The translations under genes and the position numbers were made by a program. The notes under the pieces are model-generated. The model did not search any database, was not told the DNA's origin, and saw only the letters and a program-made list of their open reading frames with translations. Positions 17,215-60,142 of a stretch of DNA of 64,000 bases are shown piece by piece. The stretch spans positions 930,001-994,000 of the forward strand of contig NZ_FNVQ01000001.1 of assembly GCF_900108065.1 (NCBI RefSeq), written 5' to 3'. This DNA comes from Marinobacterium lutimaris (GTDB lineage: Bacteria > Pseudomonadota > Gammaproteobacteria > Pseudomonadales > Balneatricaceae). Position 1 is the stretch's first letter. Each line of letters begins with the position of its first letter.

Positions 17215-18438
17215 TTAGTCATAGTTTCGCTCCACTTTTATTCCATTTTTTGCCTTGAACTTTAATTCATCCAAGAAATCCGCCCAGCTTTGCATCATTC
17301 CCTTGCGCTGGTTTAAATGGGTAGTCCTGTTGTAAGCTCTCCCATTGGTATCTTTAACGGCATGTGCTAGCTGATGCTCAATCCAGTCAACTGGGAACTG
17401 AAGCTCTTCATCCAAAAGTGTACGGGCCATCGCTCTGAACCCATGTGCAGTCATCTGATTCTTTGTATAGCCCAAGGTTCGTAGCGCCGTACGAACAGCG
17501 TTCTCCGACATATTCCTGCTAGCCCCTCTAGCCGATGGAAAAATGTACTTTGAACGTCGGGTAATCGGCTCTAAAGACTTCAGAGCATCAATGGCCTGGG
17601 AGGCTAGAGGAATAATGTGATCCCTTCCCATTTTCATTCTTGAGCCAGGTATGACGATTTGGGCGTTATCGTAGTCGACATCCGCCCATTCCAGTGACCG
17701 AAGCTCGCCTGGCCGGCAGAAAAATAATGCAGACAAGTAGAGCGCTGCTTTAACGACAAAAGTCCCGTCAAAATCATCTATTGCTACCATTAAACGTGCA
17801 ACGTTCTCCGGATCAGTGATGGCGGCATAATTTGATTCAGGCTGGGCTTGTAGCGCACCTACCAGGTCCCTGGCAGGGTCTCGCTCACATCGCTCAGTAA
17901 TGATTGCATATCGAAACACTTGGCTAATCGTAGAGCGCAGACGCCGGGCTACTTCATGCTTTTTCTGGCTTTCTGCCTTTTTGAGTAGAATGAGGACCTC
18001 TTTCGCCCCTATTTCGGTAATGGGTAAATCACCAAACTCGGGATAGATCCAGTTCTCAAACAATCCGTGGCTGCGCGTTATCGTATCCTCTGCCCAGCCG
18101 TTTTTCTTGGTTGCAAACCACTCTTCGCTGATCAGCTTGAAGGTGTTTGCCTGAGAGTCCGTGGTAGCCTGCTTACGGACCTTTCGATCCAGTACCGGGT
18201 CGATACCCTTACGGATCTGCCTCCTGGCTTCTGTGGCTACTTCCCGCGCCTCTTTAAGGGATACTTCGGGATATACCCCTATAGCCATCAATTTCTCTTT
18301 GTTAGCAATGCGGTACTTTAGACGCCAGTACTTCGCCCCTGCTTTAGTCACAAGCAGATAGAGCCCGTTTCCATCGCTGGTTTTATAGTTTTTCTCTTTC
18401 GCTTCCAGCGAATCGATTGCTTTAACAGTCAATGCCAT
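17215..18438 (-). CDS. int: P4-type tyrosine integrase
   Basis: A 407-residue integrase of the P4/CP4 class. The N-terminal DUF4102 arm-binding domain (about 1-90) includes TSDGNGLYLLV and IGVYPEVSLKEAR. A SAM-like core-binding domain spans about 100-190. The catalytic domain has the Arg in RPGELRSLEW, the HGFRAMARTLL box, a late His in HQLAHAV and the Tyr nucleophile in GRAYNRT. These residues cut and rejoin attachment sites in tRNA 3' ends. GGAGG precedes the ATG at 18438. It lies 185 bases from a tRNA-Leu whose 3' end points at it, the standard layout, so this gene mobilised the island. All catalytic residues are present, so it may still be active. Confidence 0.95.
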   Translation of the reverse strand: MALTVKAIDSLEAKEKNYKTSDGNGLYLLVTKAGAKYWRLKYRIANKEKLMAIGVYPEVSLKEAREVATEARRQIRKGIDPVLDRKVRKQATTDSQANTFKLISEEWFATKKNGWAEDTITRSHGLFENWIYPEFGDLPITEIGAKEVLILLKKAESQKKHEVARRLRSTISQVFRYAIITERCERDPARDLVGALQAQPESNYAAITDPENVARLMVAIDDFDGTFVVKAALYLSALFFCRPGELRSLEWADVDYDNAQIVIPGSRMKMGRDHIIPLASQAIDALKSLEPITRRSKYIFPSARGASRNMSENAVRTALRTLGYTKNQMTAHGFRAMARTLLDEELQFPVDWIEHQLAHAVKDTNGRAYNRTTHLNQRKGMMQSWADFLDELKFKAKNGIKVERNYD

Positions 18439-18459
18439 CTAGCGCCTCCAACGAGACTA

Positions 18460-18509
18460 GGGGGTATCTATGTGAGTAGCATTGACCATATACCCCCAGC
18501 CATACCCCC
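18460..18509. repeat. Inverted and direct ATACCCCC repeats beside int
   Basis: GGGGGTAT (18460-18467) is inverted relative to ATACCCCC at 18490-18497, which repeats directly at 18502-18509 (12-base period). Their place between int and the tRNA attachment site suits arm-type integrase or AlpA binding sites, and they may also regulate int. Confidence 0.55.
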
Positions 18510-18622
18510 GCAAGGCCTGAGCTTCAGCGGACGACATGAGACATATTGATACGATAAGTTATTGAATAATCTAGAAAAGATGGGGGATACGAGACTTTGT
18601 GAGACGTTACGATACAAGCGGA

Positions 18623-18645
18623 TGGTGCCCCGGACCGGAATCGAA
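18623..18645. other. Probable attachment site of the island (3' end of tRNA-Leu)
   Basis: The 3' part of tRNA-Leu, facing the integrase gene, is the expected crossover region for P4-type integrases. The matching direct repeat should mark the far end of the island; I did not find a copy of this tRNA tail between 1 and 17,000, so that end is probably left of the window. Confidence 0.65.
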
Positions 18646-18708
18646 CCGGTACAGCCAAAGGCCGAGGGATTTTAAATCCCTTGTGTCTACCAATTTCACC
18701 ACCGGGGC
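18623..18708 (-). tRNA. tRNA-Leu (anticodon TAA)
   Basis: A complete cloverleaf reads leftward from 18708. The acceptor 5' strand GCCCCGG pairs with CCGGGGC at the 3' end, followed by an encoded ACCA ending at 18623. The anticodon stem AGGGA/TCCCT encloses the loop TTTAAAA with anticodon TAA, decoding UUA. A long variable arm and the T-loop GGTTCGATTCC are present, as in leucine tRNAs. The gene is intact although it borders the island. Confidence 0.96.
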
Positions 18709-23334: not shown

Positions 23335-23358
23335 CACCTAAGGCATTCGTGACGAGCG

Positions 23359-23392
23359 CATAAAATGTCAAGCCGGGTTCGCCTTTTATCAA
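23359..23392 (+). promoter_or_regulatory. AraC-type direct repeat upstream of the DUF1302 operon
   Basis: TGTCAA (23366-23371) and TATCAA (23387-23392) are 21 bases apart. The 34-base block from 23359 matches the reverse complement of 45795-45828, upstream of the second AraC gene, at 30 of 34 positions. The start codon is about 350 bases downstream; the rest of the 520-base gap holds no gene I can support. This is the best-defined member of the repeated element. Confidence 0.8.
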
Positions 23393-23743
23393 GCGCCCCC
23401 TGGCAGCGAGCCAGTAGAGTCAACGTCAGTCGCAAAAGATCCGGAGCTCAATTGAACTCCGTGATCCGCAACCAAAACGGGATGGCGCAGTACCGGAATC
23501 CAGTGGGATTAACTGCCGCCAAAACGTTTTACAAAAAAATAATAAAACGTGACCGCTGATGATGATTGCCACTTCAACTCCTGGGAACCTCTGCGTCCCC
23601 ACCCGGATTTCAACCAAGAAGGCGCTGCGCTGTTCCCCATCGCGCTGTGCTCTTTTATCGCTAGTAGTGAAACCTCAGGCCTCCTTCACCCAGCCTGTTC
23701 TCAACCCTCTTCCTTTATAAAAACAACATCCGAGGAAACAACG

Positions 23744-25366
23744 ATGAGAACCCCGCAAACCGTCCTAACGCAAAGCAGATTCAAGCGCAAAACGCTTAGT
23801 CGCATGATCTCACGCGCAACGCTGACCGGCTCTTTTGCCGGGATGCTGGCGCTGACCGCAGGTCAGGCCCATGCACTGAACTACGAACTGGAAAATGGTA
23901 TTACCGTCGATCTGGATACCACCGTTGGCTACAACGCCCAGTGGCGTGGTGAAAACCGTGACCCGAATATTGAAAGCTTCGGTGGCCTCGGCTTTCTGAC
24001 TGATGATGGCAACCGTAACTTCGATAAGGGCGACATGACCCAGAACCAGGTCAATTTCAGCTCTGACCTGGATATCAACTACGGTGATGGCGGCGTTTTT
24101 GCGCGTGCCCGCGGTTGGTATGACAGGGCGTACTCGGGCGATTTTTACGGCTACACCTTCGATAACAGATTCGACGCCCCCTATCTGCAGGACGGCATCG
24201 ATGAGCACAAATCCAAGATCGAGCTACAGGATCTGTTCTGGTACCACGGTTTCGATCTGGGCGATCAGTACCTGAGTCTGCGCGTTGGCGAGCAGGTGGT
24301 TAACTGGGGTGAGAGCCTGTTTATCCAGGGCGGCATCTCCACCGCCATGGGCCCGCTGGATGCGACCAAGTCCAACGCGCCGGGTACCGCGCTGAAAGAT
24401 ATCTTCATGCCGATCGGCCAGGTGTATGGCGAGCTTGCGGTCACCGACCTCTTCTCCATCGGTGCTTACTACCAGTACGACTGGGAAGCGACTCGCATCG
24501 ATGCCCCCGGCACCTATTTCAACGTCCTTGACGGTGTTGGCCAGAAATCCCCCGGTGACCCCTTTGGTCCGTTTGGCACTCCCATCGAGCGGGATGAGCC
24601 GGATAAAGGTCAGTACGGTATTGCCCTGCGCTACCTGGCGGAAAACCTGAACAGTACCGAGTTTGGCTTCTACTACATCAACTACAACGATTTCACGCCG
24701 GCGCTGCAGTTTCTCTCCCCTGCATCACCGACCGGCCTGACCCAGCAGCATTTCGAGGATATCGACCTCTACGGCATCAGCTTCGGCACCGTGTTTGGCG
24801 ATATGAATGTCAGCGGTGAGATCTCCTATCGCGATGGCGTCCCGGTCAGCGTGAACTACGGCCCCAATGGTGGCCCCGGTCCGGGCTTCTCTTTCGCCCG
24901 TGGTGAGGCGATCCAGACCCAACTGTCAGGGATCTATATCTTCCCGCAGAACCCGCTGGCCGACACCCTCACATTCACCGGCGAGATTGCCTACAACCGC
25001 ATCATGGATGTGGACTACCCCGGTGGTGTCGACAGCCTCAAAAAAGACCGCGGCGCAGCCAGCACCGTGCTTAGCCTCAAGGCCAGCTATCTGAACCTGA
25101 TCGGTGGCCTGGATATGGACGTGACCGGTACCTACCGCAACGACTTCAACGGCTGGTCCTCCATGGAGTTCAGCTTTGCCGAAGGCGTTGAACAGTTCGG
25201 TCTGAAAACGGACTTCACCTATCTCGGCAGCCACAAGTTTGGCGCCAGTTACGTCTGGTATCTCACCGATACCGACCAGGTTCTCAAGGACCGTGGCGCG
25301 CTTAACTTCGGCCACCTGAACGCCGACCGTGACTACTTCGCAGCTTACTACAAGTACACATTCTAA
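23744..25366 (+). CDS. DUF1302 family outer-membrane protein
   Basis: A 540-residue protein with a signal peptide (cleavage expected after the GQAHA near residue 45) and then many alternating beta-like strands, ending in an aromatic residue (YYKYTF) typical of outer-membrane barrels. The DUF1302 family groups with DUF1329, YCF48-like and RND/MMPL genes, as here, and has been linked to uptake or processing of hydrophobic substrates such as steroids and terpenes; the mechanism is not established. The start at 23744 has GAGGAAACAACG upstream; the longer frame to 23549 would put the signal peptide in the middle of the protein. First gene of a six-gene run. Confidence 0.88.
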   Translation: MRTPQTVLTQSRFKRKTLSRMISRATLTGSFAGMLALTAGQAHALNYELENGITVDLDTTVGYNAQWRGENRDPNIESFGGLGFLTDDGNRNFDKGDMTQNQVNFSSDLDINYGDGGVFARARGWYDRAYSGDFYGYTFDNRFDAPYLQDGIDEHKSKIELQDLFWYHGFDLGDQYLSLRVGEQVVNWGESLFIQGGISTAMGPLDATKSNAPGTALKDIFMPIGQVYGELAVTDLFSIGAYYQYDWEATRIDAPGTYFNVLDGVGQKSPGDPFGPFGTPIERDEPDKGQYGIALRYLAENLNSTEFGFYYINYNDFTPALQFLSPASPTGLTQQHFEDIDLYGISFGTVFGDMNVSGEISYRDGVPVSVNYGPNGGPGPGFSFARGEAIQTQLSGIYIFPQNPLADTLTFTGEIAYNRIMDVDYPGGVDSLKKDRGAASTVLSLKASYLNLIGGLDMDVTGTYRNDFNGWSSMEFSFAEGVEQFGLKTDFTYLGSHKFGASYVWYLTDTDQVLKDRGALNFGHLNADRDYFAAYYKYTF

Positions 25367-35018: not shown

Positions 35019-35085
35019 TTGGCCGCGCAGCCGGACTCTTTAATCAAAGGGCCGGCAGCGCCTACCGCTATTTGCTGTCGTGTTA

Positions 35086-35112
35086 TGTCAAGCGGATCGC
35101 AGATTCGGTCAA
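35086..35112 (+). promoter_or_regulatory. AraC-type direct repeat upstream of the DUF3604 genes
   Basis: TGTCAA (35086-35091) and GGTCAA (35107-35112) are exactly 21 bases apart and end about 90 bases before the first DUF3604 start. They match the repeat seen at 23366, 49066 and 58330. Confidence 0.72.
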
Positions 35113-35201
35113 ATCCCGCTGTCCGGGATTCCTTACCCTAAAACAAAATAAAAACAGGTGCCTTTGAGCGCCTATCAACCCGTAAAGGGGAGCTCGTTTC
35201 A

Positions 35202-40877: not shown

Positions 40878-41894
40878 ATGTCGACCCACAACAACCAGAT
40901 GCTGGAAGCACGCAGCAGCGTACTGCTCGGTTTTACCGAGCATTGCCGCCGACACAGGATCAACCCGATGCAGATCCTTGCGCGGGAAAACCTGACCCCG
41001 GCGGTGACCCGGTCGCAGGATCTGCGTATCCCCTACCGCAGCTTTGTGCGGGTGCTGGACCATGCCGCGGCGGAATCCCCCTACCCGCTGTTCGCGCTGA
41101 CCCTGTCGCTGCGTCACGGCATAGAAGCGCTGGGTGCGTTGGGGTTGATGGCCTGTCAGTGCGACACGCTGCGCGACAGCCTGGAGATGGTGCGTAAATA
41201 CGTGCACTACCATGCCCAGGGGGTGGAGCTGGAGCTGACGGAACAGAACGGTGTAGCGCGGCTCAGTTACAACGTCAGAATGGCCGAAAAGATCGATCTG
41301 ACCCAGCTGATGGAGGTGGGCATAGGTCGTATCTTCAGCGTGCTCAAAACCCTGGCGCCGCCCGGCATGAGCCTTACCGGTGTAAGCTTTCGCCACGCCC
41401 CTACAGCGCCGATCGATGCCTACACCCGCGAGCTGGGGCTGGAGCCCAGGTTCAGAGCCGGGGTCAATGCGGTCAGCTTTCCTGCTTCATTTTTGCCGCT
41501 ACCGCCGTCACCGGCGCCGGAACGGCTGCGGCACTACTTTGAATCCTTTCTGCGGCAGAATCCCCAGGAACATCTGTTGCCGCTAAAACAGCAGGTGATT
41601 AAGCTGATCCATGAAATGATCCCCACCGGCGAAGTCTCCGCCGACGCGGTAGCGAAGCTGATGAATATGCATACCCGCAGTCTGCAGCGCCAGCTCAAGC
41701 TGACCGGTACCGATTTCAGAACCCTGCTGGAAGAGGTGCGCTACCAACTGGCACAGGATGCACTGAGAAACGCCGAACAACCGCTGACCGAGGTGGCCCT
41801 GCAACTGGGCTACTCGGAACTGAGCGCGTTCTCGCGGGCGTTCAAGCGCTGGAGCGGCGTATCACCGCAGAAATGGCGGGCAACCTCAGGTTAG
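40878..41894 (+). CDS. AraC-family regulator (OruR-like), first copy
   Basis: A 338-residue regulator. Residues 1-230 are the PF12625-type arabinose-binding-like domain with EALGALGLMACQCDTLRDSL. The C-terminus (about 240-335) is a two-helix-turn-helix AraC domain with MNMHTRSLQRQLKLTGTDFRTL and ALQLGYSELSAFSRAFKRWSGVSPQ. It follows the HupE-like gene by 43 bases, probably in the same operon. It is about as similar as a paralogue to the protein at 45974-47014, so both could read the 21-base direct repeats in this window; which one does is unknown. Confidence 0.9.
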   Translation: MSTHNNQMLEARSSVLLGFTEHCRRHRINPMQILARENLTPAVTRSQDLRIPYRSFVRVLDHAAAESPYPLFALTLSLRHGIEALGALGLMACQCDTLRDSLEMVRKYVHYHAQGVELELTEQNGVARLSYNVRMAEKIDLTQLMEVGIGRIFSVLKTLAPPGMSLTGVSFRHAPTAPIDAYTRELGLEPRFRAGVNAVSFPASFLPLPPSPAPERLRHYFESFLRQNPQEHLLPLKQQVIKLIHEMIPTGEVSADAVAKLMNMHTRSLQRQLKLTGTDFRTLLEEVRYQLAQDALRNAEQPLTEVALQLGYSELSAFSRAFKRWSGVSPQKWRATSG

Positions 41895-41991: not shown

Positions 41992-43029
41992 CTAAAATGT
42001 ACCCCGGGAGAGTTCCTCCCTGAGGATCGCAGCGCCCTTGCACAGGGCTTCAAGCTTGCCCCGGGCTACGCTGTTGGGCAGCGGTGCCATGCCGCAGTTG
42101 GTGCTCGGGTACAATTTATCGGCATCGACAAATTTCAGCGCACGTCGAAGCGTCTCAGCGACCTCTTCCGGCGTTTCGATCTGATGATTGGCCACATCGA
42201 TAGCGCCGACCATCACTTTTTTGCCACGGATCAGTTCGATCAGATCCATGGGCACACGCGAGTTATGGCACTCCAGTGAGATCAGATCGATAGACGACTG
42301 CTGCAGCTTTGGAAATATTTCCTCGTATTGCCGCCATTCCGAGCCGAGGGTCTTTTTCCAGTCGGTGTTGGCTTTTATCCCATAGCCGTAACAGATATGT
42401 ACGGCCGTTTCGCACTTCAGCCCCTCGACGGCCTTCTCCAGCGCAGCAATACCCCAGTCATTTACCTCATCAAAGAAGACGTTAAACGCCGGCTCATCAA
42501 ACTGAATGATATCGACGCCTGCGGCCTCCAGCTCTTTTGCCTCCTGGTTAAGAACTTTGGCAAATTCCCAGGCGAGTTTTTCACGGGATTTGTAGTGGGC
42601 ATCATAGAGCGTATCGACCATTGTCATCGGGCCAGGCAGCGCCCACTTGATCGGTTTGTCGGTCTGCTGGCGCAGGAACCTGGCATCGTCGACAAACACC
42701 GGTTTTTGACGCGCGATCGCACCGTTAACCACGGGTACGCTGGCGTCATAACGATCACGTATCTTCACCGTGCGGCGGTTTTCGAAATCGACGCCGCTCA
42801 GGTGCTCAATAAACGTGGTTACAAAGTGCTGGCGTGTCGTTTCGCCATCACTGACGATATCAATGCCAGCCCGGTCCTGATCCATCAAGGCCAGGCGCAG
42901 AGCATCCTGTTTGCCCGCTACAAGCTCATCAGCTTCCAGTTTCCAGGGTGACCAGAGTTTCTCCGGTTCTGCGAGCCACAGGGGTTTCGGCAGACTGCCG
43001 GCGGTTGAGGTCGGTAGTAATGTTTTCAT
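41992..43029 (-). CDS. mesD: Core-MetE type methionine synthase (MesD)
   Basis: A 345-residue protein equivalent to the catalytic C-terminal half of MetE. Zinc-ligand candidates are the His and Cys in VHICYGYG, the Glu in the conserved segment and Cys in PSTNCGMAPL; EPAFN is also typical. The neighbouring DUF1852 gene is diagnostic: MesD-type enzymes make methionine from homocysteine without folate and require the DUF1852 protein MesX (established by genetics in related bacteria). ATG 43029 is chosen; the longer frame would overlap mesX heavily. No classical MetE N-terminal half is present. Confidence 0.88.
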   Translation of the reverse strand: MKTLLPTSTAGSLPKPLWLAEPEKLWSPWKLEADELVAGKQDALRLALMDQDRAGIDIVSDGETTRQHFVTTFIEHLSGVDFENRRTVKIRDRYDASVPVVNGAIARQKPVFVDDARFLRQQTDKPIKWALPGPMTMVDTLYDAHYKSREKLAWEFAKVLNQEAKELEAAGVDIIQFDEPAFNVFFDEVNDWGIAALEKAVEGLKCETAVHICYGYGIKANTDWKKTLGSEWRQYEEIFPKLQQSSIDLISLECHNSRVPMDLIELIRGKKVMVGAIDVANHQIETPEEVAETLRRALKFVDADKLYPSTNCGMAPLPNSVARGKLEALCKGAAILREELSRGTF

Positions 43030-43043
43030 GTTCAAATCCCGGA

Positions 43044-44030
43044 TCAGATGCGTGATGAAGCGCAGTTTGCGGACCACTGCTGAAGAATCGGCTGGTAAGG
43101 CTCGATGAAGTGCTCTTTGGCAAACCTGCCCTGTTGAACCGCCAGATGGTTACGTTCTACGCGATCGTAGTTAATCAGGGTGAGCGAGTAGTCCGAGTGT
43201 TTTAAGCTCGGCTTGTAGCACTTACCTGCCGCCGCATTCGCGTTGTAAATTTCCGGGCGATAGATTTTCTGGAACGTCTCCATGGTACTGATCGTGCTGA
43301 TCAGCTCGAGATTGGTGTAATCGTTGAGCAGATCCCCAAAGAAGTAGAAAGCAAGCGGCGCGACGCTGTTTGGCGGCATGAAGTAGCGCACCTGCAGACC
43401 CATTTTCTTAAAGTAGCTCTCGGTCAATGAGGACTCGTTGGGCAGGTACTCGTTGCCTAACACCGGGTGCTGGTTGTCGGTCTGTACGTACGTCTTGTTC
43501 TCGGAAACGCTCAAACAGATCACCGGCGGCTTATCGAAACTGTTTTTGTAACTTTCCGATTCAATGAAGTGTTTAAAAATCTTGCCGTGCAGATCGCCAA
43601 ATTCATCGGGGATCGTAAAGTTCGGCTGATCCTTGTTGTGATCCCGTAGAAGAACGCTGAAGTCATAATCACGAACGTAGGATGAGAAGTTGTTACCGAC
43701 AACGCCCTCGATGGTTTCACCCGTTTTATGATCAACGATATCGGTTTTTAACATCTCCAGCGTCGGGAATGTCTGTCCATCGCCGGCCACATCGATGTCC
43801 ACGGAGACGATATCGAGTACCACGGAATAGCGCTTGCCGTCAGCGTTGTCCCAGTTCGCCAGGGCATTAAAGCGGCTGTCGATCATCTGCAACGCATTGC
43901 GCAAGTTCTCCTCGCGGCTCTCACCACGCGCCAGGTTGGCGAAGTTGGTGGTCAGGCGTGTGTCGTCCGACGGTTGGTAGTTCTCATCAAAACGGGTTTT
44001 CTTAACCGTGAAGGCAAAATCCCTGCTCAT
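43044..44030 (-). CDS. mesX: DUF1852 protein MesX
   Basis: A 328-residue DUF1852 protein, with recognisable landmarks such as a start FAFTVKKTRFDENY and NYDRVERNHLAVQQGRFAKEHF near the end. It lies upstream of mesD with only 14 bases between them, forming one operon. In the published MesD system the DUF1852 protein is needed for methionine synthesis and may use oxygen or supply the methyl donor; the chemistry is unresolved. AGGGAG lies before the ATG at 44030. Two inverted repeats at 44125-44175 lie upstream and probably regulate the operon. Confidence 0.9.
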   Translation of the reverse strand: MSRDFAFTVKKTRFDENYQPSDDTRLTTNFANLARGESREENLRNALQMIDSRFNALANWDNADGKRYSVVLDIVSVDIDVAGDGQTFPTLEMLKTDIVDHKTGETIEGVVGNNFSSYVRDYDFSVLLRDHNKDQPNFTIPDEFGDLHGKIFKHFIESESYKNSFDKPPVICLSVSENKTYVQTDNQHPVLGNEYLPNESSLTESYFKKMGLQVRYFMPPNSVAPLAFYFFGDLLNDYTNLELISTISTMETFQKIYRPEIYNANAAAGKCYKPSLKHSDYSLTLINYDRVERNHLAVQQGRFAKEHFIEPYQPILQQWSANCASSRI

Positions 44031-44124: not shown

Positions 44125-44175
44125 GTGAATGAAATTAATGATATTTCACTTCGATGTGAATTTAATTAATTCACA
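44125..44175. promoter_or_regulatory. Two GTGAA-type inverted repeats before mesX
   Basis: TGAAAT/ATTTCA arms (44130-44148, seven-base centre, extended to GTGAA at 44125 and TTCAC to 44149) and TGTGAATT/AATTCACA arms (44155-44175, five-base centre) lie 95-145 bases upstream of mesX. Both have TGAA...TTCA ends, as MetR-type sites do, though the spacing is longer. A methionine-linked regulator is likely. No SAM riboswitch fold was found. Confidence 0.72.
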
Positions 44176-45042
44176 CTTGTAGGTGAGTGACAGGAACGCG
44201 GTGACATCCTGCTCAGCTACCACCTCAGGATGACCGAGAAGATCGCTCTAACGCGGCAGGACTGGCACGTAACCACATTTGGTACCTCCTTGGAGTCCCT
44301 GCGCCCGCAAACGGATAAGGACTCGAAACAGCTAATTGGCAGATGGGCAGCAGTAATTGGCTGACATCCCAAAGGGGTTGGTTGAGTCAATGAATAACCA
44401 GGCACAAGGCAGAGGCGTCGGATCGAGATGGCCCTACCTGAGAGAAAAAGATGGACCCGGAGAGTCGACAACCGCTGTGCTGCGTATGTCGAAAGGGAAT
44501 TCAAGATGGGGCTTGCAGGCCTAAGCCGCTCCCCGCTTTTTTTAGGGAGCACTCCGATCAAAATCACTTATTCACTATAGGACGTCCAGACGTGGACTCC
44601 TGTTCTCAACCCGTCATCGCTTTCGCGATCAATGATCATCATATTACCCGTGAGCTTTTCTGACAGAGAGAACTTCCAGGCACTAACCGTCGTGAGTCCC
44701 TGCGGTAGTTATCGGAGATTAATGCCTGGATGTAGGTGCAGCATGTAGCTTACAGAGTTCGTTATTGACTGGATTGGTACCAAAAAACTGAGGTGGCAGG
44801 AAAGGGTAAAAGCGTGAAAAAGGATCAAGCGAGGACTATTGCGTGATGGCTCAGAAAAATTACGTCGGCCTTCTATTAAATAAATAAAATAAAGCTATCA
44901 CTGGTCTGGTAATGAGCGTACTATGAATTTGCTTGATAGTAAGACCTGCATTTATGCCCCTTTTCGAAGTCCTGCCTAATCGTATGTGCCTCGTTCTGTT
45001 TTCATAAGTCCTTGTATTATTTAGAGCATCATTCGAACAGAT
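44176..45042. other. Long intergenic region between mesX and the cold-shock gene
   Basis: About 870 bases without a supportable gene. A few short open frames exist but they have no ribosome site and no recognisable sequence. An inverted repeat TCCAGGCA/TGCCTGGA occurs at 44675-44682 and 44723-44730. The right part, after about 44,900, is probably the promoter and long 5' leader of the cold-shock gene. Confidence 0.5.
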
Positions 45043-45078
45043 GCAGAATTTTTCTGCAGTGTTCAAACATTTTTGAAC
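45043..45078 (+). promoter_or_regulatory. Two hairpins in the cold-shock mRNA leader
   Basis: GCAGAA/TTCTGC (45043-45057) and GTTCAAA/TTTGAAC (45061-45078) form two adjacent small stems, the second ending 12 bases before the start codon. Placed over the ribosome binding region, they could act as a temperature-sensitive leader, as in cspA. Confidence 0.5.
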
Positions 45079-45090
45079 GAGAGTACTATT

Positions 45091-45300
45091 ATGTCTACTG
45101 CTACTGGCACCGTTAAATGGTTCAACGAGTCTAAAGGCTTCGGCTTTATCACACAAAATAACGGTGGTCCGGACGTTTTCGCCCATTTCAGCGCGATTAC
45201 GGGTTCAGGCTTCAAAAACCTTACTGAAGGCCAAGAAGTTCAGTTTTCTGTTACTCAGGGCCAAAAAGGTCCTCAGGCTGAAAACATAACCGCGATCTAA
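45091..45300 (+). CDS. CspA-family cold-shock protein
   Basis: A 69-residue OB-fold protein with both RNA-binding motifs: KGFGFI (RNP1) and VFAHFSAI (RNP2-like). It begins [21 protein letters not shown], so ATG 45091 is chosen over an upstream ATG at 45073. CspA proteins bind single-stranded RNA and melt secondary structure. It is flanked by a leader with hairpins and by a strong terminator, so it is monocistronic. Confidence 0.95.
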
Positions 45301-45323
45301 ACATCGAGTTTAGTAAGTGATTT

Positions 45324-45350
45324 AAAACGGACTCTCGGGGTCCGTTTTTT
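45324..45350 (+). terminator. Rho-independent terminator of the cold-shock gene
   Basis: A 9-base stem AAAACGGAC/GTCCGTTTT with loop TCTCGGG followed by a T-tract lies 24 bases past the stop. Confidence 0.9.
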
Positions 45351-45790
45351 GTTGCTTTTTTAAGGGGAGTTAAAAAGATTTTTTCTTTTAATAAACAATC
45401 AATTTGAATTCCGGTGCCCTTCAGTCCTTCAGCCCTACCACTACATACCGCATTATTTTTTCACTCACCAGATTCCTTTTTTGGCGATATGCTTTTAGCA
45501 GTGCACCCTTTAACACGGATTTTTTGTTGTTACTCCGTTTCGGCTCCTACTGCCGCGAAGCGATGATTTCCTCTAAAAAGCCCGCCGTTACCTGGGTTGA
45601 GCAACCTTTTCGATCTAGGGACGACCGCCCCTCTTTGCCGGAACCCGACCTTTAGCATTAACGGTATTTCCGGAGCTTCTTCAACCACGCTTACCCGCAT
45701 CCGGTGGCTTTTTGGCTCTTATCACCTTTTCGATGGTCTCGTGCGAAAGCGCACATCAGTGTTGAGTTCACCTGCGTTCAAACGGTCAAG
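45351..45790. other. Intergenic region before the second AraC gene
   Basis: About 440 bases hold no gene I can support. Two short frames here look like noise without ribosome sites. The right end leads into the direct-repeat operator region. Confidence 0.5.
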
Positions 45791-45794
45791 CTAT

Positions 45795-45828
45795 TTGACA
45801 GAATGCGAACCCGGATTGACATTTTATG
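45795..45828 (-). promoter_or_regulatory. AraC-type direct repeat upstream of the second AraC gene
   Basis: On the plus strand TTGACA occurs at 45795-45800 and 45816-45821, a 21-base period; read on the minus strand this is TGTCAA-N15-TGTCAA. The 34-base block equals the element at 23359-23392 at 30 of 34 positions. A further TTGACA at 45918 and paired GCCATTT copies (45892, 45913; also 21 apart) follow. The gene-strand orientation is opposite to most other sites, which suits autoregulation. Confidence 0.75.
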
Positions 45829-45973
45829 ACAGGCGTTTGGCTGAAAATGATACCAAATCAGCAGTTCTGCATTGATTATGAAAGGTTTTGTGCCATTTTG
45901 TAGCGATTCGACGCCATTTGACAATTTGCGGCACGGGATTAATCTGAGCGCCATAAAGATAAAAATAAATTAG

Positions 45974-47014
45974 ATGGTGCTAAAAATGGGTAGTGTAACC
46001 TCCAGCTCGAAGGTTAAGAGCAGCGCGCTCATGGGCTTTCAGGCCCTGTGTCGGAGCCGTCATATCAACCCGGTTGAAATGCTCGCCGCCGAAGGGCTGT
46101 CGAGTACCGTTCTTCGTATCCCCGATCTGATGATCGCCTATGACAGCCTCGCCCACGTCCTGAACCATACGGCCGATGTGGCGGACTACCCTCTCTTTGG
46201 ACTGGAGATGTCCAAATACCAGGGGCTGAAAACCTTTGGACCTCTGGGGTTGCTTGCCTCGCAAAGCGCTACCGTCGCCGGTAGTCTTGAGATCATCGAG
46301 AAGTATTTCCACTTCCACGCCTCCGGCGTCATCATGAACCTGGTGCCGCATGGCAAAGAGATGCACTTCTGCCTGGATATCATGATCGATCCGTCGATCA
46401 GCCAGGAACAGCTGCTGGAGATGAGCCTGGTGCTGGGTTACAACGTGCTTTGCGAGCTCTCGCCGGAGTTTGCAAGCCAGACCAGCATCCACTTCCGTCA
46501 CCCCGCCCTGGCCGAGCCCGAGGAGTACAGCGCCATCACCCGAGCGAAGCTCTGCTTCGGTCAGGAGCGCGATGCACTGGTGTTCCCGGCGCGTCTGCTC
46601 GAGCAGAAGCCCAGCCCCGCCTCCGATGAGGTAAAAAACTATCTGGAAGCCTTCCTTGAGCGGGAATCCCAGGGGCATGAGCAGCCGCTGCAGCACAAGG
46701 TCTCGAAACTGATCTACGAACTGATCCCCACCGGCGAAGCAACGCTGACCACCATTGCCCCGATGCTCGGGATGAACATGCGCACCCTGCAACGTGAGCT
46801 GCGCCAGCAGGGCACCGAGTTTCGTACCCTGCTGGACGACGTGCGTTTCGAGATCGCCCGCACAGCGCTGGAACAGAACCACTCCATCACCGATGTGGCG
46901 CTGAACCTGGGTTACTCGGAGCTAAGCGCCTTTTCACGGGCATTCAAGCGCTGGTCGGGTGTGCCGCCGCAGCGCTGGCGTCATAACGATCACGCTCCCC
47001 GCATGATGCACTGA
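45974..47014 (+). CDS. AraC-family regulator (OruR-like), second copy
   Basis: A 346-residue paralogue of the regulator at 40878. The N-terminal ligand-type domain has GPLGLLASQSATVAGSLEII. The C-terminal AraC domain has LGMNMRTLQRELRQQGTEFRTL and ALNLGYSELSAFSRAFKRWSGVPPQ. Two starts are possible, 45974 and 45986; neither has a strong ribosome site. It has its own promoter with direct repeats like those before the catabolic genes, so it is the leading candidate for the activator of the regulon. The inducer is unknown. Confidence 0.9.
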   Translation: MVLKMGSVTSSSKVKSSALMGFQALCRSRHINPVEMLAAEGLSSTVLRIPDLMIAYDSLAHVLNHTADVADYPLFGLEMSKYQGLKTFGPLGLLASQSATVAGSLEIIEKYFHFHASGVIMNLVPHGKEMHFCLDIMIDPSISQEQLLEMSLVLGYNVLCELSPEFASQTSIHFRHPALAEPEEYSAITRAKLCFGQERDALVFPARLLEQKPSPASDEVKNYLEAFLERESQGHEQPLQHKVSKLIYELIPTGEATLTTIAPMLGMNMRTLQRELRQQGTEFRTLLDDVRFEIARTALEQNHSITDVALNLGYSELSAFSRAFKRWSGVPPQRWRHNDHAPRMMH

Positions 47015-47052: not shown

Positions 47053-47146
47053 CTCTCTTCTTTCACGTTCCCTCCTTTCACGTTTTTTTCGTTCACCTTC
47101 CCTTCTTCCAAATAAGTCACAAAATGCCGAATCGCTGTCGCGGTTG

Positions 47147-47156
47147 GTCAAGCCGG
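47147..47156 (+). promoter_or_regulatory. Single half-site upstream of the GlcD-type gene
   Basis: GTCAAGCCGG lies 115 bases before the start and matches the strong half-site at 23367-23376 (GTCAAGCCGG). A partner 21 bases upstream is only TGCCGA, so this is a weaker or single site. Confidence 0.45.
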
Positions 47157-47270
47157 TTTGGTCCCAGCTCTCTATTTTCTCAGTCTGAGTCCAGCAGATT
47201 CTGTCTTCGGCTAATGAGTAGGCTCATGAGCTTGGGAAGGCAGCAGAATAAATAGAAATGGATCGAAATA

Positions 47271-48950: not shown

Positions 48951-49065
48951 GTCTCGCCAGCAGGCGAAACCTGCCTCGAAAAGCACACAAGTCTAAATGG
49001 TTGCGACAACATGAGGCGGGATTGGTAAGGCTTCCTGAGGCCTACCTTTCTTCCCTGTCGTTTTG

Positions 49066-49092
49066 TGTCAACAGCAAGACACCTATTGTCAA
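49066..49092 (+). promoter_or_regulatory. AraC-type direct repeat upstream of the GMC operon
   Basis: Two perfect TGTCAA copies (49066-49071 and 49087-49092) are 21 bases apart and end 170 bases before the Tat-subunit start. Confidence 0.8.
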
Positions 49093-49262
49093 GATCGCCA
49101 ACCGGCTGCCACCTAGCATGTGAGTCAGAAAATTGCTCAAAGGCCCGATGCGCCGACAGCGCCTGCGATGCGGCTCCACTTGAGCAACGACCTCGTCGCG
49201 ACAGCTCCTTCTGTCTCAACGATCCAGCTACTTAGACCATAACTAAAACAAGGCTAAGAACG

Positions 49263-56573: not shown

Positions 56574-58049
56574 TTAGAGGCGGAACTTGAACACCAGCTT
56601 CATCAGCTTCTCGTAGCGCGCGCCGTAAGGCGGTGCCAGCATCAGGATGCCGGACTTTTTCGCCTGCTGGAAAACCGGACGGATCTTGGAGAACTCAAGG
56701 AAGCCCTCGCGGCCGTGGTAATGGCCCATACCGCTGTTACCCACGCCGCCAAACGGCATATCGTGCTGGGCTGCGTGCAGCAGGGTGTCGTTGATGCAGG
56801 CGCCGCCAGACAGGGTGTTATAGAGCACCTTCTCCTGGGTCTGCTTGTTATTGCTGAACAGGTAGAGGCCCAGCGGGCGCTCACCGGCGTTGATGTACTT
56901 GATCACCTCGTCCAGGCTGTCGTACAGCTTGATCGGCAGCAGCGGGCCGAAGATCTCGTCACGCATGATCAGCATCTCTTCGCTGACATCCAGCACCGCG
57001 GTGGGCGGGTACTTGCGGTCCCTGGCGTTGGGCTCGCCTTTGGAAACCAGACGTACCGCCTTGGCGCCCTTCTGCGTCGCATCTTCAACGGTCTGCACGA
57101 TGCGCTCGAAGGAGCGGTCATCGATGATCGAGGTAAAGTCGCGGGAATCTGCACTGCCATAGCGCTCGTTCACCACTGCCTGGGCGTAGCCGAGAAACTC
57201 CTGCGCCTTGCCGCGCGGCAGGAACAGGTAATCCGGCGCGGTACAGGTCTGGCCGCTGTTGATGCACTTGCCCCAGAGAATACGCTCGGCGGCGGTGCGC
57301 AGATCGTAGTCGGGCGCGATGATGGTCGGTGACTTGCCGCCCAGCTCCAGGGTAACCGGCGTCAGGTACTTGGACGCGGTTTCCATTACGGTTTTACCGG
57401 TGGCCGGAGAGCCGGTGAAGACAAAGTGGTCCCAGGGACGGTCGGTAAATTCGCTGGCACGCACGCCGGGGATAACGGCGAACTGCTCGTCGCTGAATTC
57501 AGCCGATACCAGCTTGTCCAGCAGGCGGCAGAGGTTCTGCGAGTTGGCGGCCATCTTGACGATAACGCGGTTACCGGCTGCCAGTGCCGCGATAGACGGG
57601 CCTATCGCCAGCGCCAACGGGTAGTTCCAGGGGCTGACAACGCCGACTACGCCCTTGGGCTGTGGGATGACGCGGTTTTTCGCACCGAGGAAGTTAAGCC
57701 CCACATGACGCTTCTCCGGCTTCATCCACTTCTTGAGATGCTTCTTGTGGTAAGCCACCGCACTGGTCATCTGCGAAATATCGAGCAGCTTGGTTTCCTG
57801 CGGGCAGCGATTGCCGAAGTCGGCGTTCACCGCTTCACAGATCGCATCCATGTTCTCCATCAGGAGCTTGTCGATCTTGTTGAGCGCATCGATACGCTGC
57901 TGATAGCTCGGATAGGGCTGCTCGCGGGAGGCGCGGCGTTGTTTATCAAATACGCGATCAATGCGGCTTTTCGCCTCGCTGATCTGCGCCTGGGTACTCT
58001 GATCCTGGGCTCTCTGTTCCTGAGCAATAGTCGGTGCGGCACTCGTCAT
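56574..58049 (-). CDS. Aldehyde dehydrogenase (coniferyl-aldehyde dehydrogenase-like)
   Basis: A 491-residue NAD(P)-dependent aldehyde dehydrogenase. The catalytic Glu is in TLELGGKSPTII and the Cys in NSGQTCTAPDY. Other motifs are FTGSPATGKTVM and the class-3-like ending MPFGGVGNSGMGHYHGREGFLEFS. It most resembles the coniferyl-aldehyde dehydrogenase (CalB) and class 3 fatty-aldehyde group. It oxidises an aldehyde to its acid. AGAGG precedes the ATG at 58049. A TGTCAA direct repeat lies 127-153 bases upstream, as for other genes here. It runs opposite to the acyl-CoA ligase and may supply its acid substrate. Confidence 0.9.
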   Translation of the reverse strand: MTSAAPTIAQEQRAQDQSTQAQISEAKSRIDRVFDKQRRASREQPYPSYQQRIDALNKIDKLLMENMDAICEAVNADFGNRCPQETKLLDISQMTSAVAYHKKHLKKWMKPEKRHVGLNFLGAKNRVIPQPKGVVGVVSPWNYPLALAIGPSIAALAAGNRVIVKMAANSQNLCRLLDKLVSAEFSDEQFAVIPGVRASEFTDRPWDHFVFTGSPATGKTVMETASKYLTPVTLELGGKSPTIIAPDYDLRTAAERILWGKCINSGQTCTAPDYLFLPRGKAQEFLGYAQAVVNERYGSADSRDFTSIIDDRSFERIVQTVEDATQKGAKAVRLVSKGEPNARDRKYPPTAVLDVSEEMLIMRDEIFGPLLPIKLYDSLDEVIKYINAGERPLGLYLFSNNKQTQEKVLYNTLSGGACINDTLLHAAQHDMPFGGVGNSGMGHYHGREGFLEFSKIRPVFQQAKKSGILMLAPPYGARYEKLMKLVFKFRL

Positions 58050-58175
58050 GGTGACCTCTATCTTATTTTATCTGTCGGGGTTCAAGCAGAAACGGCGAGC
58101 GCCTGCCTGAGTGCTACAGCCAAAAAGCGGCTTCTAGTAAACACTGACAGCCTAAAAGAGCCCCCACCCACCAGC

Positions 58176-58202
58176 TTGACACTTAGCGATTTGGATTTGA
58201 CA
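58176..58202 (-). promoter_or_regulatory. AraC-type direct repeat upstream of the aldehyde dehydrogenase
   Basis: Read leftward toward the gene, TGTCAA occurs at 58202-58197 and again at 58181-58176, exactly 21 bases apart. Both copies are perfect. Confidence 0.8.
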
Positions 58203-58329
58203 AAAGACGTCGCGCCGAAGCCCACAGATCCCCGATGAGTCACCCTTTTATCGCGTTACTTCTCAGTAAAAAGCCGGGCTGAATTTAGAGGGATTCAAGA
58301 AGAGTTAAGACGAGTTGAACGTCGCGAAC

Positions 58330-58356
58330 TGTCAAAGCCGGTGCGGCTTATGTCAA
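58330..58356 (+). promoter_or_regulatory. AraC-type direct repeat upstream of the acyl-CoA ligase
   Basis: TGTCAA at 58330-58335 and 58351-58356, 21 bases apart, both perfect, end about 150 bases before the start codon. Together with the opposite-facing pair at 58176-58202, it gives each divergent gene its own site in one 458-base gap that contains no other gene. Confidence 0.8.
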
Positions 58357-58507
58357 GCAGCCGGAATGCCCCTCTCGCACTATTCCTACCACTGAAAGAG
58401 CTCTTTTCCCGGTTTGTCCAGGCGAGGGTGCAGCTAAGCACCGCGTTCTGCGTACCCGGCGGGAGAGGCCTCAAGTCCGGTAAAAATAACTAAAAAGAGA
58501 CATTCAC

Positions 58508-60142
58508 ATGGCGACTAGACTCCTGCAATCGGCCGATTCCGCTTACGACTATCCCCTGCTGATCAAACAGCTGCTGCAGTCCAACCAGCGGTTTGAAACC
58601 GAGCATCAGATCGTATCGGGCGAGCACCGGTTCAGTTATGCCCAGTTCAACGAGCGTATCTGCCGCCTCGCCAACGCGCTTAAAGCCGCGGGTATCGGCC
58701 CCGGCGATACAGTCGCCGTGATGGACTGGGACAGCCATCGTTATCTTGAATGTTTCTTTGCGGTGCCGATGATCGGCGCCGTGCTGCACACGGTGAATAT
58801 CCGTCTGTCGCCGGGTCAGATTCTCTACACCATGAACCACGCCGAGGATGACCTGGTGCTGGTGCATGATGATTTCCTGCCGATCATCGATGGCATCAAG
58901 GATCAGCTGGAAACCGTCAAAGGCTATATCCAGCTAACCGATCAACCCGAAAACGCCTGCTCCTTCGAATCTCTGGGTGAATACGAGGCGCTGCTGGCCA
59001 AGGCCGACACTGCGTACGACTTCCCGGACTTCGATGAAAACTCCATTGCAACCACCTTCTATACGACCGGTACAACCGGCAACCCCAAGGGTGTGTTCTT
59101 CTCACATCGTCAGCTGGTGCTGCACACGCTGAACATGGTGAACACCCTGCAATCCCGCAACTGCGATAGCGCCCTGCTTGATCATGAAGGCGTCTATATG
59201 CCGATTACGCCGATGTTCCATGTGCATGCCTGGGGCATCCCCTACGCGGCGACCATGATGGGCGTACAGCAGGTTTATCCGGGCCGTTATGAGCCCAACA
59301 ACCTGACCCGCCTGATCCGCGAGGAAGGCGTGACCTTCTCCCACTGTGTGCCGACCATCCTGCAGATGGTGATGCAGTCTGGCGAGGCGGCGGATACCGA
59401 TTTCAACGGCTGGCAGGTGATTATCGGCGGCAGCGCGCTGACACCGGGCCTGGCCAAGCAGGCGCTGGAAAGCGGCATTCAGCCGTTCAGCGCCTACGGC
59501 ATGTCGGAAACCTGCCCGCTGATGTCCATGACCCGCATGGACAAAAACAGCTACGCCCTGCCGGCGGAGGAGCAGATCGCACTGCGCACCCGCGCGGGCC
59601 TGCCATCTGACCTGGTCGATATCCAGATCTGGACGCCGGAAGGCAAGGTGCTGGCGAACGACGGCAAGAGCGCCGGTGAGCTGGTGGTGCGCGCGCCCTG
59701 GCTGACCCAGAGCTACCTGAACGAGCCGGAAAAAGGCGCCGAACTCTGGCAAGGCGGCTGGCTGCACACCGGCGATATCGCCTGCATTCATCCGGATGGC
59801 TGCATCGAGATCAAGGACCGCATCAAGGACGTCATCAAGACCGGCGGTGAGTGGATCTCCTCCCTGGAGATAGAGCGCCTGATCAGCCAGCACGAAGATG
59901 TGGCCGCGGTTACCGTGGTCGGTGTGCCCGACGAGCGTTGGGGTGAGCGCCCCTTCGCCATGATAGTGCCGCGCCGCGAGCAGCTGGAGGCCGAGAGCAT
60001 TCAGCAGCATCTGCAGCGCTTTGTCGACGACGGCACCATTAACAAATGGGCGATCCCCAAAGCGATTCAGCTGGTGGACGATATCCCGAAAACCAGCGTC
60101 GGCAAGATCGACAAGAAGCGTATCCGCGCCCAGCTGGCCTGA
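58508..60142 (+). CDS. Medium/long-chain acyl-CoA ligase
   Basis: A 544-residue adenylate-forming enzyme. The AMP-binding P-loop is TTFYTTGTTGNPKGVFFSH, the A5-type motif is YGMSETCPL, and GWLHTGDIACIHPDGCIEIKDR and the C-terminal Lys in KTSVGKIDKKRI follow. It activates a carboxylic acid to its CoA thioester with ATP, like AlkK/FadD13-type ligases. A DUF-type long N-terminal arm is absent. It lies head-to-head with the aldehyde dehydrogenase. Aromatic or branched acids are equally possible substrates. AGAG lies before the ATG. Confidence 0.9.
   Translation: MATRLLQSADSAYDYPLLIKQLLQSNQRFETEHQIVSGEHRFSYAQFNERICRLANALKAAGIGPGDTVAVMDWDSHRYLECFFAVPMIGAVLHTVNIRLSPGQILYTMNHAEDDLVLVHDDFLPIIDGIKDQLETVKGYIQLTDQPENACSFESLGEYEALLAKADTAYDFPDFDENSIATTFYTTGTTGNPKGVFFSHRQLVLHTLNMVNTLQSRNCDSALLDHEGVYMPITPMFHVHAWGIPYAATMMGVQQVYPGRYEPNNLTRLIREEGVTFSHCVPTILQMVMQSGEAADTDFNGWQVIIGGSALTPGLAKQALESGIQPFSAYGMSETCPLMSMTRMDKNSYALPAEEQIALRTRAGLPSDLVDIQIWTPEGKVLANDGKSAGELVVRAPWLTQSYLNEPEKGAELWQGGWLHTGDIACIHPDGCIEIKDRIKDVIKTGGEWISSLEIERLISQHEDVAAVTVVGVPDERWGERPFAMIVPRREQLEAESIQQHLQRFVDDGTINKWAIPKAIQLVDDIPKTSVGKIDKKRIRAQLA

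Follow-up and report, generated by a model that had tools for sequence, protein, structure and literature searches.

TGTCAA direct-repeat operators and a probable AraC/XylS-type regulon around a DUF1302 gene cluster of Marinobacterium lutimaris

Two distant promoter regions of M. lutimaris carry a closely similar block of 34 bp, at positions 23359-23392, upstream of a gene for a DUF1302 protein, and, as reverse complement, at 45795-45828, upstream of the second of two AraC-type genes, and the question raised by this locus is what the two blocks are for. A preliminary description had counted 30 shared bases out of 34 and had placed both blocks outside coding DNA; the count is reproduced exactly, and neither block overlaps any gene of the set checked. 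Hereafter, the window is the whole 64-kb stretch that was analysed (G000:C18:930001-994000, G000 being the own genome), to which positions refer unless a contig or genome is named. As far as the DNA itself allows to judge, it is highly probable that both belong, as operators, to a single AraC/XylS-type regulon run by the product of the second AraC-type gene (AraC2), which would activate a gene cluster and repress itself.

A direct-repeat operator family in the window

Both blocks contain the hexamer TGTCAA (once as TATCAA) twice, as a direct repeat 21 bp apart, and they are members of a TGTCAA-N15-TGTCAA family with half-sites of about 15 bp spaced by 21 bp. A scan of the window for pairs of cores gave four exact pairs and six at up to one mismatch for this spacing, compared with at most one exact and at most two at up to one mismatch for each of the other spacings from 8 to 39. 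The 21-bp spacing hence stands out, and, at about two helical turns, it is the one looked for between the direct-repeat half-sites of AraC/XylS class II operators. In the own genome there are four exact copies of the core pattern, all of them within the window. The bare core at up to one mismatch occurs at 17 places genome-wide versus 17 for a reversed-pattern control, so that it is specific only if exact or accompanied by its outer bases; when these are added (CRY four bases before each core), up to two mismatches give 10 matches versus one for the reversed control.

The preliminary description saw an operator specific to two promoters, a point that had to be abandoned, as the window holds seven sites of the family (one weak), six of them before gene groups of one cluster, probably operons, and one in the AraC2 promoter. 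The first (23357-23392, plus strand), with half-sites 21 bp apart and TATCAA as second core, contains the 23359-23392 block and is followed 22 nt further on by a predicted -10 box, TAGAGT (23415-23420, plus); the DUF1302 gene (23744-25366, plus; Pfam PF06980, E 3.6e-131) opens a DUF1302-DUF1329-YCF48-MMPL cassette that extends to 30597. Next on the plus strand are the operators before the DUF3604 genes (35077-35112; predicted -10 TACCCT at 35134-35139), before a FAD-linked oxidase gene (47116-47151; predicted -10 TATTTT at 47173-47178) and before the Gluconate_2-dh3/GMC oxidoreductase genes (49057-49092; predicted -10 TAGCAT at 49114-49119). The FAD oxidase operator is the weak one, with cores TGCCGA and GGTCAA and a matrix score of 14.5, under the cut-off of 18. 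The minus-strand aldehyde dehydrogenase gene (56574-58049) has its operator at 58176-58211 (minus; predicted -10 TAGGCT at 58149-58154), and the AMP-binding (acyl-CoA ligase) gene at 58508 is preceded by another at 58321-58356 (plus), with CACTAT, not TAnnnT, at 58378-58383. The seventh, in the AraC2 promoter, runs on the minus strand from 45795 to 45830 and contains the other block.

Outside the window, a likely operator lies at G000:C18:1074328-1074363, with TAAACT 21 nt past it, and a similar site of M. mangrovicola, at G003:C1:990461, is accompanied by TAGACT. A structured RNA was also considered for the blocks and rejected, as an Rfam scan of the window at gathering threshold returned a tRNA alone.

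Promoter geometry and conservation

Searches for orthologues of AraC2 at E<=1e-60 found them in 8 of the 116 genomes of the family and in G080, a genome of another family that came from 390 sampled genomes of the order. The nine proteins show 63-100% identity, and the nearest named genome found, M. mangrovicola DSM 27697 (G003), encodes an AraC2 that is 99% identical. Around the nine genes, 47 core matches were found, of which 46 (a G432 match at 46522, minus, was dropped) built the logo NNCRYNWWN-TGTCAA-N6-NNCRYNWWN-TGTCAA. A half-site matrix was then trained on 69 distinct half-sites, keeping out all G003 sites and the AraC2-promoter sites G000 975795 and G430 218988, and pairs were accepted with each half scoring at least 4 and a sum of at least 24. 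At spacing 21, this matrix found 55 pairs in 726 kb around the nine AraC2 genes, as against a mean of 0.25 pairs for 16 other spacings in the same 726 kb and two pairs, from two loci, in 215 kb of sequence around loci lacking AraC2.

The -10-like boxes offer a separate view, since the TAnnnT bases lie outside the matrix training and were not used in site finding. Outside the AraC2 promoter there are 52 sites (60 minus eight AraC2-promoter matches), five of them off-cluster (G000 1010386 and one each in G000b, G003b, G024 C20 and G435 C82). TAnnnT starts 20-22 nt past 40 of these 52 sites, 39 of them at 21-22 nt, and past 35 of 46 when G003 is left aside; other 3-nt offset windows gave a mean of 0.84 and a maximum of 4. 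The main exception is the acyl-CoA ligase promoter, with TAnnnT at the expected place in none of eight cases. With a -10 box at 20-22 nt, the -35 region would fall where the second TGTCAA ends. Class II activation by AraC/XylS proteins calls for a proximal half-site that adjoins or overlaps the -35, and this is what is seen here if the predicted -10 positions are taken as a guide, the acyl-CoA ligase promoters excepted; the arrangement of site and predicted -10 would accordingly be of class II AraC/XylS geometry. We propose that an AraC2 dimer, responding to a substrate of the cluster, would bind the two direct half-sites of about 15 bp (NNCRYNWWN-TGTCAA) 21 bp apart, and that the second one, abutting the -35, would help to recruit RNA polymerase to a weak promoter with its TAnnnT 21-22 nt downstream. 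The targets in the window would be the putative DUF1302 export cassette, the DUF3604 genes, the GMC oxidoreductase genes, the aldehyde dehydrogenase and the acyl-CoA ligase, with the FAD oxidase as a weakly driven one.

The sites are kept by position. They precede DUF1302 in 8 of the 8 genomes whose cluster has this gene, DUF3604, the GMC genes and the aldehyde dehydrogenase in 9 of 9 each, the acyl-CoA ligase in 8 of 8 (in G447 and G435, at a distance of 0.9 kb) and, at a matrix score of at least 18, the FAD oxidase in 5 of 8. These per-gene counts are partly circular because some of the same sites had served to train the matrix, a circularity from which the core-only and -10 counts are free, and no site count is independent, the nine genomes being related. 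With the core and outer bases at up to one mismatch, all nine AraC2 genomes were positive, with 44 matches (2 to 7 per genome), of which 41 fall in the cluster and 3 elsewhere, and none appeared in any of 11 hand-picked relatives without AraC2, whose best AraC2 matches have E 2e-48 or weaker. At up to two mismatches, the level for which the reversed control was counted, that control gave 0 to 7 matches in other genomes, equalling the pattern in G447 (7 and 7) and exceeding it in G005 and G036. DUF1302 homologue loci without AraC2 (G021, G032, G024 C24 and G024 C3:190-250 kb) contain no exact operator; in G032 there is one match at one mismatch, within the DUF1302 gene itself.

Two further arrangements were seen in passing. 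The DUF1302 promoter of G024:C3 has four tandem cores, GGTCAA followed by TGTCAA three times, spaced by 21 bp. At G036:C12:73182-73215 there is an inverted repeat with GGTCAA cores, at two mismatches, just upstream of a more distant AraC gene (73260-74246, 33% identity), hinting that the arrangement may be more widely shared.

The candidate regulator and its own promoter

AraC2 (45974-47014, plus) combines an AraC-type N-terminal domain (PF12625, E 1.2e-27) with the C-terminal double helix-turn-helix (PF12833, HTH_18, E 2.9e-20) characteristic of AraC/XylS proteins. It is the best candidate regulator, because its orthologues accompany the operators in nine genomes, with no match at up to one mismatch in the 11 hand-picked relatives without it, and because the sites are present in G080, G432 and G435, where no AraC1 turned up at the cut-off used. 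AraC1, the paralogue encoded at 40878-41894 (plus), is 43% identical to AraC2, and in the tree the AraC2 orthologues group in one clade (99/100), separate from five AraC1 proteins that form their own.

It is nevertheless possible, if unlikely, that AraC1, alone or together with AraC2, regulates these sites. Its domain make-up is that of AraC2 (PF12625 and HTH_18), the DNA-binding domains are 57% identical, the second helix-turn-helix is the same in both proteins (GYSELSAFSRAFKRWSG), and its gene adjoins that of AraC2 in G000, G003, G430, G421 and G447, with MesD/MesX in between in the first two. However, the first helix-turn-helix differs, the nearest AraC1-like gene of G024 is about 45 kb from AraC2, and G080, G432 and G435 retain operators and AraC2 with no second match at E<=1e-60, a cut-off passed by the five AraC1 proteins (G080 has an additional AraC elsewhere, at 34% identity and E 6.6e-50). 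Where both proteins exist, both may bind, given their common second helix-turn-helix.

With AraC2 as the preferred regulator, its own promoter can be examined. An inverted half-site, GCCGCAAATTGTCAA (45918-45932, minus), has a core that in reverse is the predicted AraC2 -35, TTGACA, with a predicted -10, TAATCT (45940-45945, plus), 16 bp past it. Such an inverted half-site lies near the gene start in 9 of 9 AraC2 promoters, and its reversed core is TTGACA in the eight distinct AraC2 promoter sequences (G003 is like G000); 16 bp further on, G000 and G430 have TAATCT and the others weaker -10-like hexamers, down to CAAATA in G024. TTGACA alone would appear in any good promoter, but the outer part of the half-site sits in the spacer between -35 and -10, and in a ranking with 39 TGTCAA hexamers from control loci it stands with the top one in 7 of 8 promoters and with the top four in G430, where it is weak. 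The coverage of the -35 in all nine promoters suggests that AraC2 would repress its own gene, since binding at 45918-45932 would shut out the polymerase.

The 45795-45830 operator is of another kind. Its orientation, away from AraC2, and the lack of a TAnnnT 20-22 nt past it in both G000 and G003 are not what would be expected of an AraC2 activator site. The proposal that AraC2 controls both the DUF1302 operon and itself is hence retained as to the best candidate, whose orthologues track the operators, and revised as to the role of the block at 45795, which may rather play an auxiliary part as an inverted operator some 100 bp upstream of the -35 half-site. Inverted counterparts with two half-sites exist in G003, G430 and G421, and a single inverted half-site in G447. 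The distance from the upstream inverted half-site to the -35 half-site is 102 bp in G000, 102 in G003, 100 in G430, 111 in G421 and 103 in G447; helical phasing of the two was considered and is not claimed, the independent cases being too few. No upstream inverted element was found within 300 bp of AraC2 in G432, G435 and G024, where HupE directly precedes AraC2, and in G080 its place is taken by the aldehyde dehydrogenase operator. The element occurs in the five genomes where AraC1 neighbours AraC2, an association that counts as one event because the five AraC2 proteins form a single clade. AraC itself can form a repression loop. A two-regulator circuit, in which AraC1 and AraC2 compete for the same operators and an AraC-like repression loop joins the 45795 operator to the -35 half-site about 100 bp off, being used on the AraC2 promoter only where AraC1 neighbours AraC2, is put forward as a tentative idea.

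The orientation of the 45795 operator brings in the MesD/MesX genes (41992-44030), an oxygen-dependent methionine synthase pair according to the accessible portion of PMC7857596, which both Marinobacterium genomes have between the AraC1 and AraC2 genes; the stretches covered from the other seven clusters contain no match to them. The 45795 operator might be an activator site of the divergent MesX-MesD transcript instead of a control site of AraC2, a reading we regard as quite improbable. It faces MesX, whose start is about 250 bp away in M. mangrovicola, a G080 site in a similar place faces the divergent aldehyde dehydrogenase gene, and an overlapping weaker frame (45816-45851, first half 5.2) has TAGCTT at 22 nt in G000. 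That hexamer is absent in G003, however, and the strong site has no such box in either genome. Moreover, G430 and G421 have the inverted operator without a divergent gene, since AraC1 is upstream in the same direction, and in the window the MesX start is 1765 bp off, beyond a segment with a cold-shock-like gene that is absent from M. mangrovicola. This segment, 44160-45782, puts about 1.6 kb between MesX and AraC2, in place of about 0.1 kb in M. mangrovicola. The gene recognised by eye between 44030 and 45795 is a plus-strand cold-shock-like ORF (45091-45300), and a divergent target gene in the same interval was sought by eye and rejected, no convincing minus-strand ORF being present.

Likeness of the two blocks and related systems

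The blocks at 23359 and 45795 resemble each other more than members of the family usually do. Among 123 pairs of distinct operators within eight genomes (leaving out overlapping operators 21 bp apart, the frame at G000 975816, window 45816, and all of G003), mean identity was 20.3/34 (sd 2.6), and this pair came top with 30/34, followed by one with 26/34. Independent draws from the operator column frequencies give P = 4.5e-5 per pair for at least 30/34, which agrees with the earlier remark that the match goes beyond the TGTCAA cores. When the two promoters are compared in relatives, the sites persist and the degree of likeness does not: the equivalent blocks share 28/34 in M. mangrovicola, 21/34 in G430 and 21/34 in G421. 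The excess likeness therefore looks recent and local, perhaps the result of a copy event, and the regulatory claim stands without it.

A stronger version would have the likeness arise from recent copying (duplication or conversion) of a 34-bp stretch of promoter devoid of regulatory meaning; this we hold to be very improbable. The P value above and the high likeness restricted, among four genomes compared, to the two Marinobacterium ones speak for copying; yet DUF1302-promoter operators exist in other genera, G430 and G421 also have operators upstream of AraC2 with different bases between the cores, and the matching run stops at the block edges, that is, at those of the operator. Copying may account for the spacer bases but not for the sites. 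Chance likeness, or a dispersed repeat as foreseen in the preliminary description, has practically nothing to recommend it, as nothing was found in its favour, the operator family is kept by position in nine genomes, and the pattern derived from the pair, with up to three mismatches allowed, matches just two places, both at zero mismatches, in the window (shuffle mean 0.00, n=100) and in the whole genome (5,568,333 bases, 21 contigs), without a third copy.

The preferred reading, operators of an AraC2 regulon, has relatives among known systems, here taken from the accessible portions of the papers cited. SphR of Pseudomonas aeruginosa, an AraC-family protein that controls sphA, sphBCD and cerN, was shown, with its inducer, to bind its half-sites (PMC3900636). 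Its operators also consist of two direct 15-bp half-sites 6-8 bp apart, with few sites per genome and a small set of target promoters, but its half-site is TGNCCSNNRNNSNCC as opposed to NNCRYNWWN-TGTCAA and its genes are others (PMC3900636). The XylS-type CphR of Rhodococcus has a comparable two-repeat operator with a different motif, TGCA-N6-GGNTA (PMC6205950). For MtlR of Pseudomonas fluorescens, a pair of similar 15-bp blocks, one spanning -72 to -58 and the other -50 to -36, precedes the -35, although in a mannitol system and, in that portion of the source, with no TGTCAA motif described (PMC4514859). The top-scoring named family for both AraC1 and AraC2 is QhpR (NCBIfam NF049968; cut-off 250 bits), with AraC1 passing at 258 bits and AraC2 falling short at 221; in a Pfam scan of 29 window proteins, none was named as a quinohaemoprotein amine dehydrogenase, and the QhpR papers listed held nothing relevant. 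Literature searches joining DUF1302, DUF1329 and AraC, or DUF3604 and DUF1302, found nothing; the one combining TGTCAA, the AraC family and direct repeats led to another regulator only, and, of the matches listed for Marinobacterium and AraC, the one consulted concerns another regulator too.

On the target side, the order DUF1302-DUF1329-YCF48-like-MMPL/RND, as given by Pfam, matches that of an AmeABCD-type cassette. In Castellaniella defragrans, AmeABCD comprises a DUF1302 protein, a DUF1329 protein, a photosystem-II-assembly-like protein and a RND-type pump, as in the target group here, and its deletion lowered monoterpene tolerance; the word regulator is absent from the main text of that paper (PMC6394551). 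Very probably, then, if the DNA is a fair guide, an AraC-type regulator switches on one catabolic/export cluster through copies of one operator and also governs its own gene, a familiar and ordinary form of bacterial regulation. In this way, the likeness of two sites becomes a defined and testable regulon with an operator logo, a promoter geometry, a likely regulator and targets in nine genomes. An AmeABCD-like export cassette, whose DUF1302 and DUF1329 proteins are poorly known, is tied by it, together with the DUF3604 genes, to one catabolic cluster, and the inducer of AraC2 would therefore point to the substrate. Elsewhere in the window, a phage-type integrase gene stands next to a tRNA-Leu gene (17215-18708), perhaps marking an integrated element.
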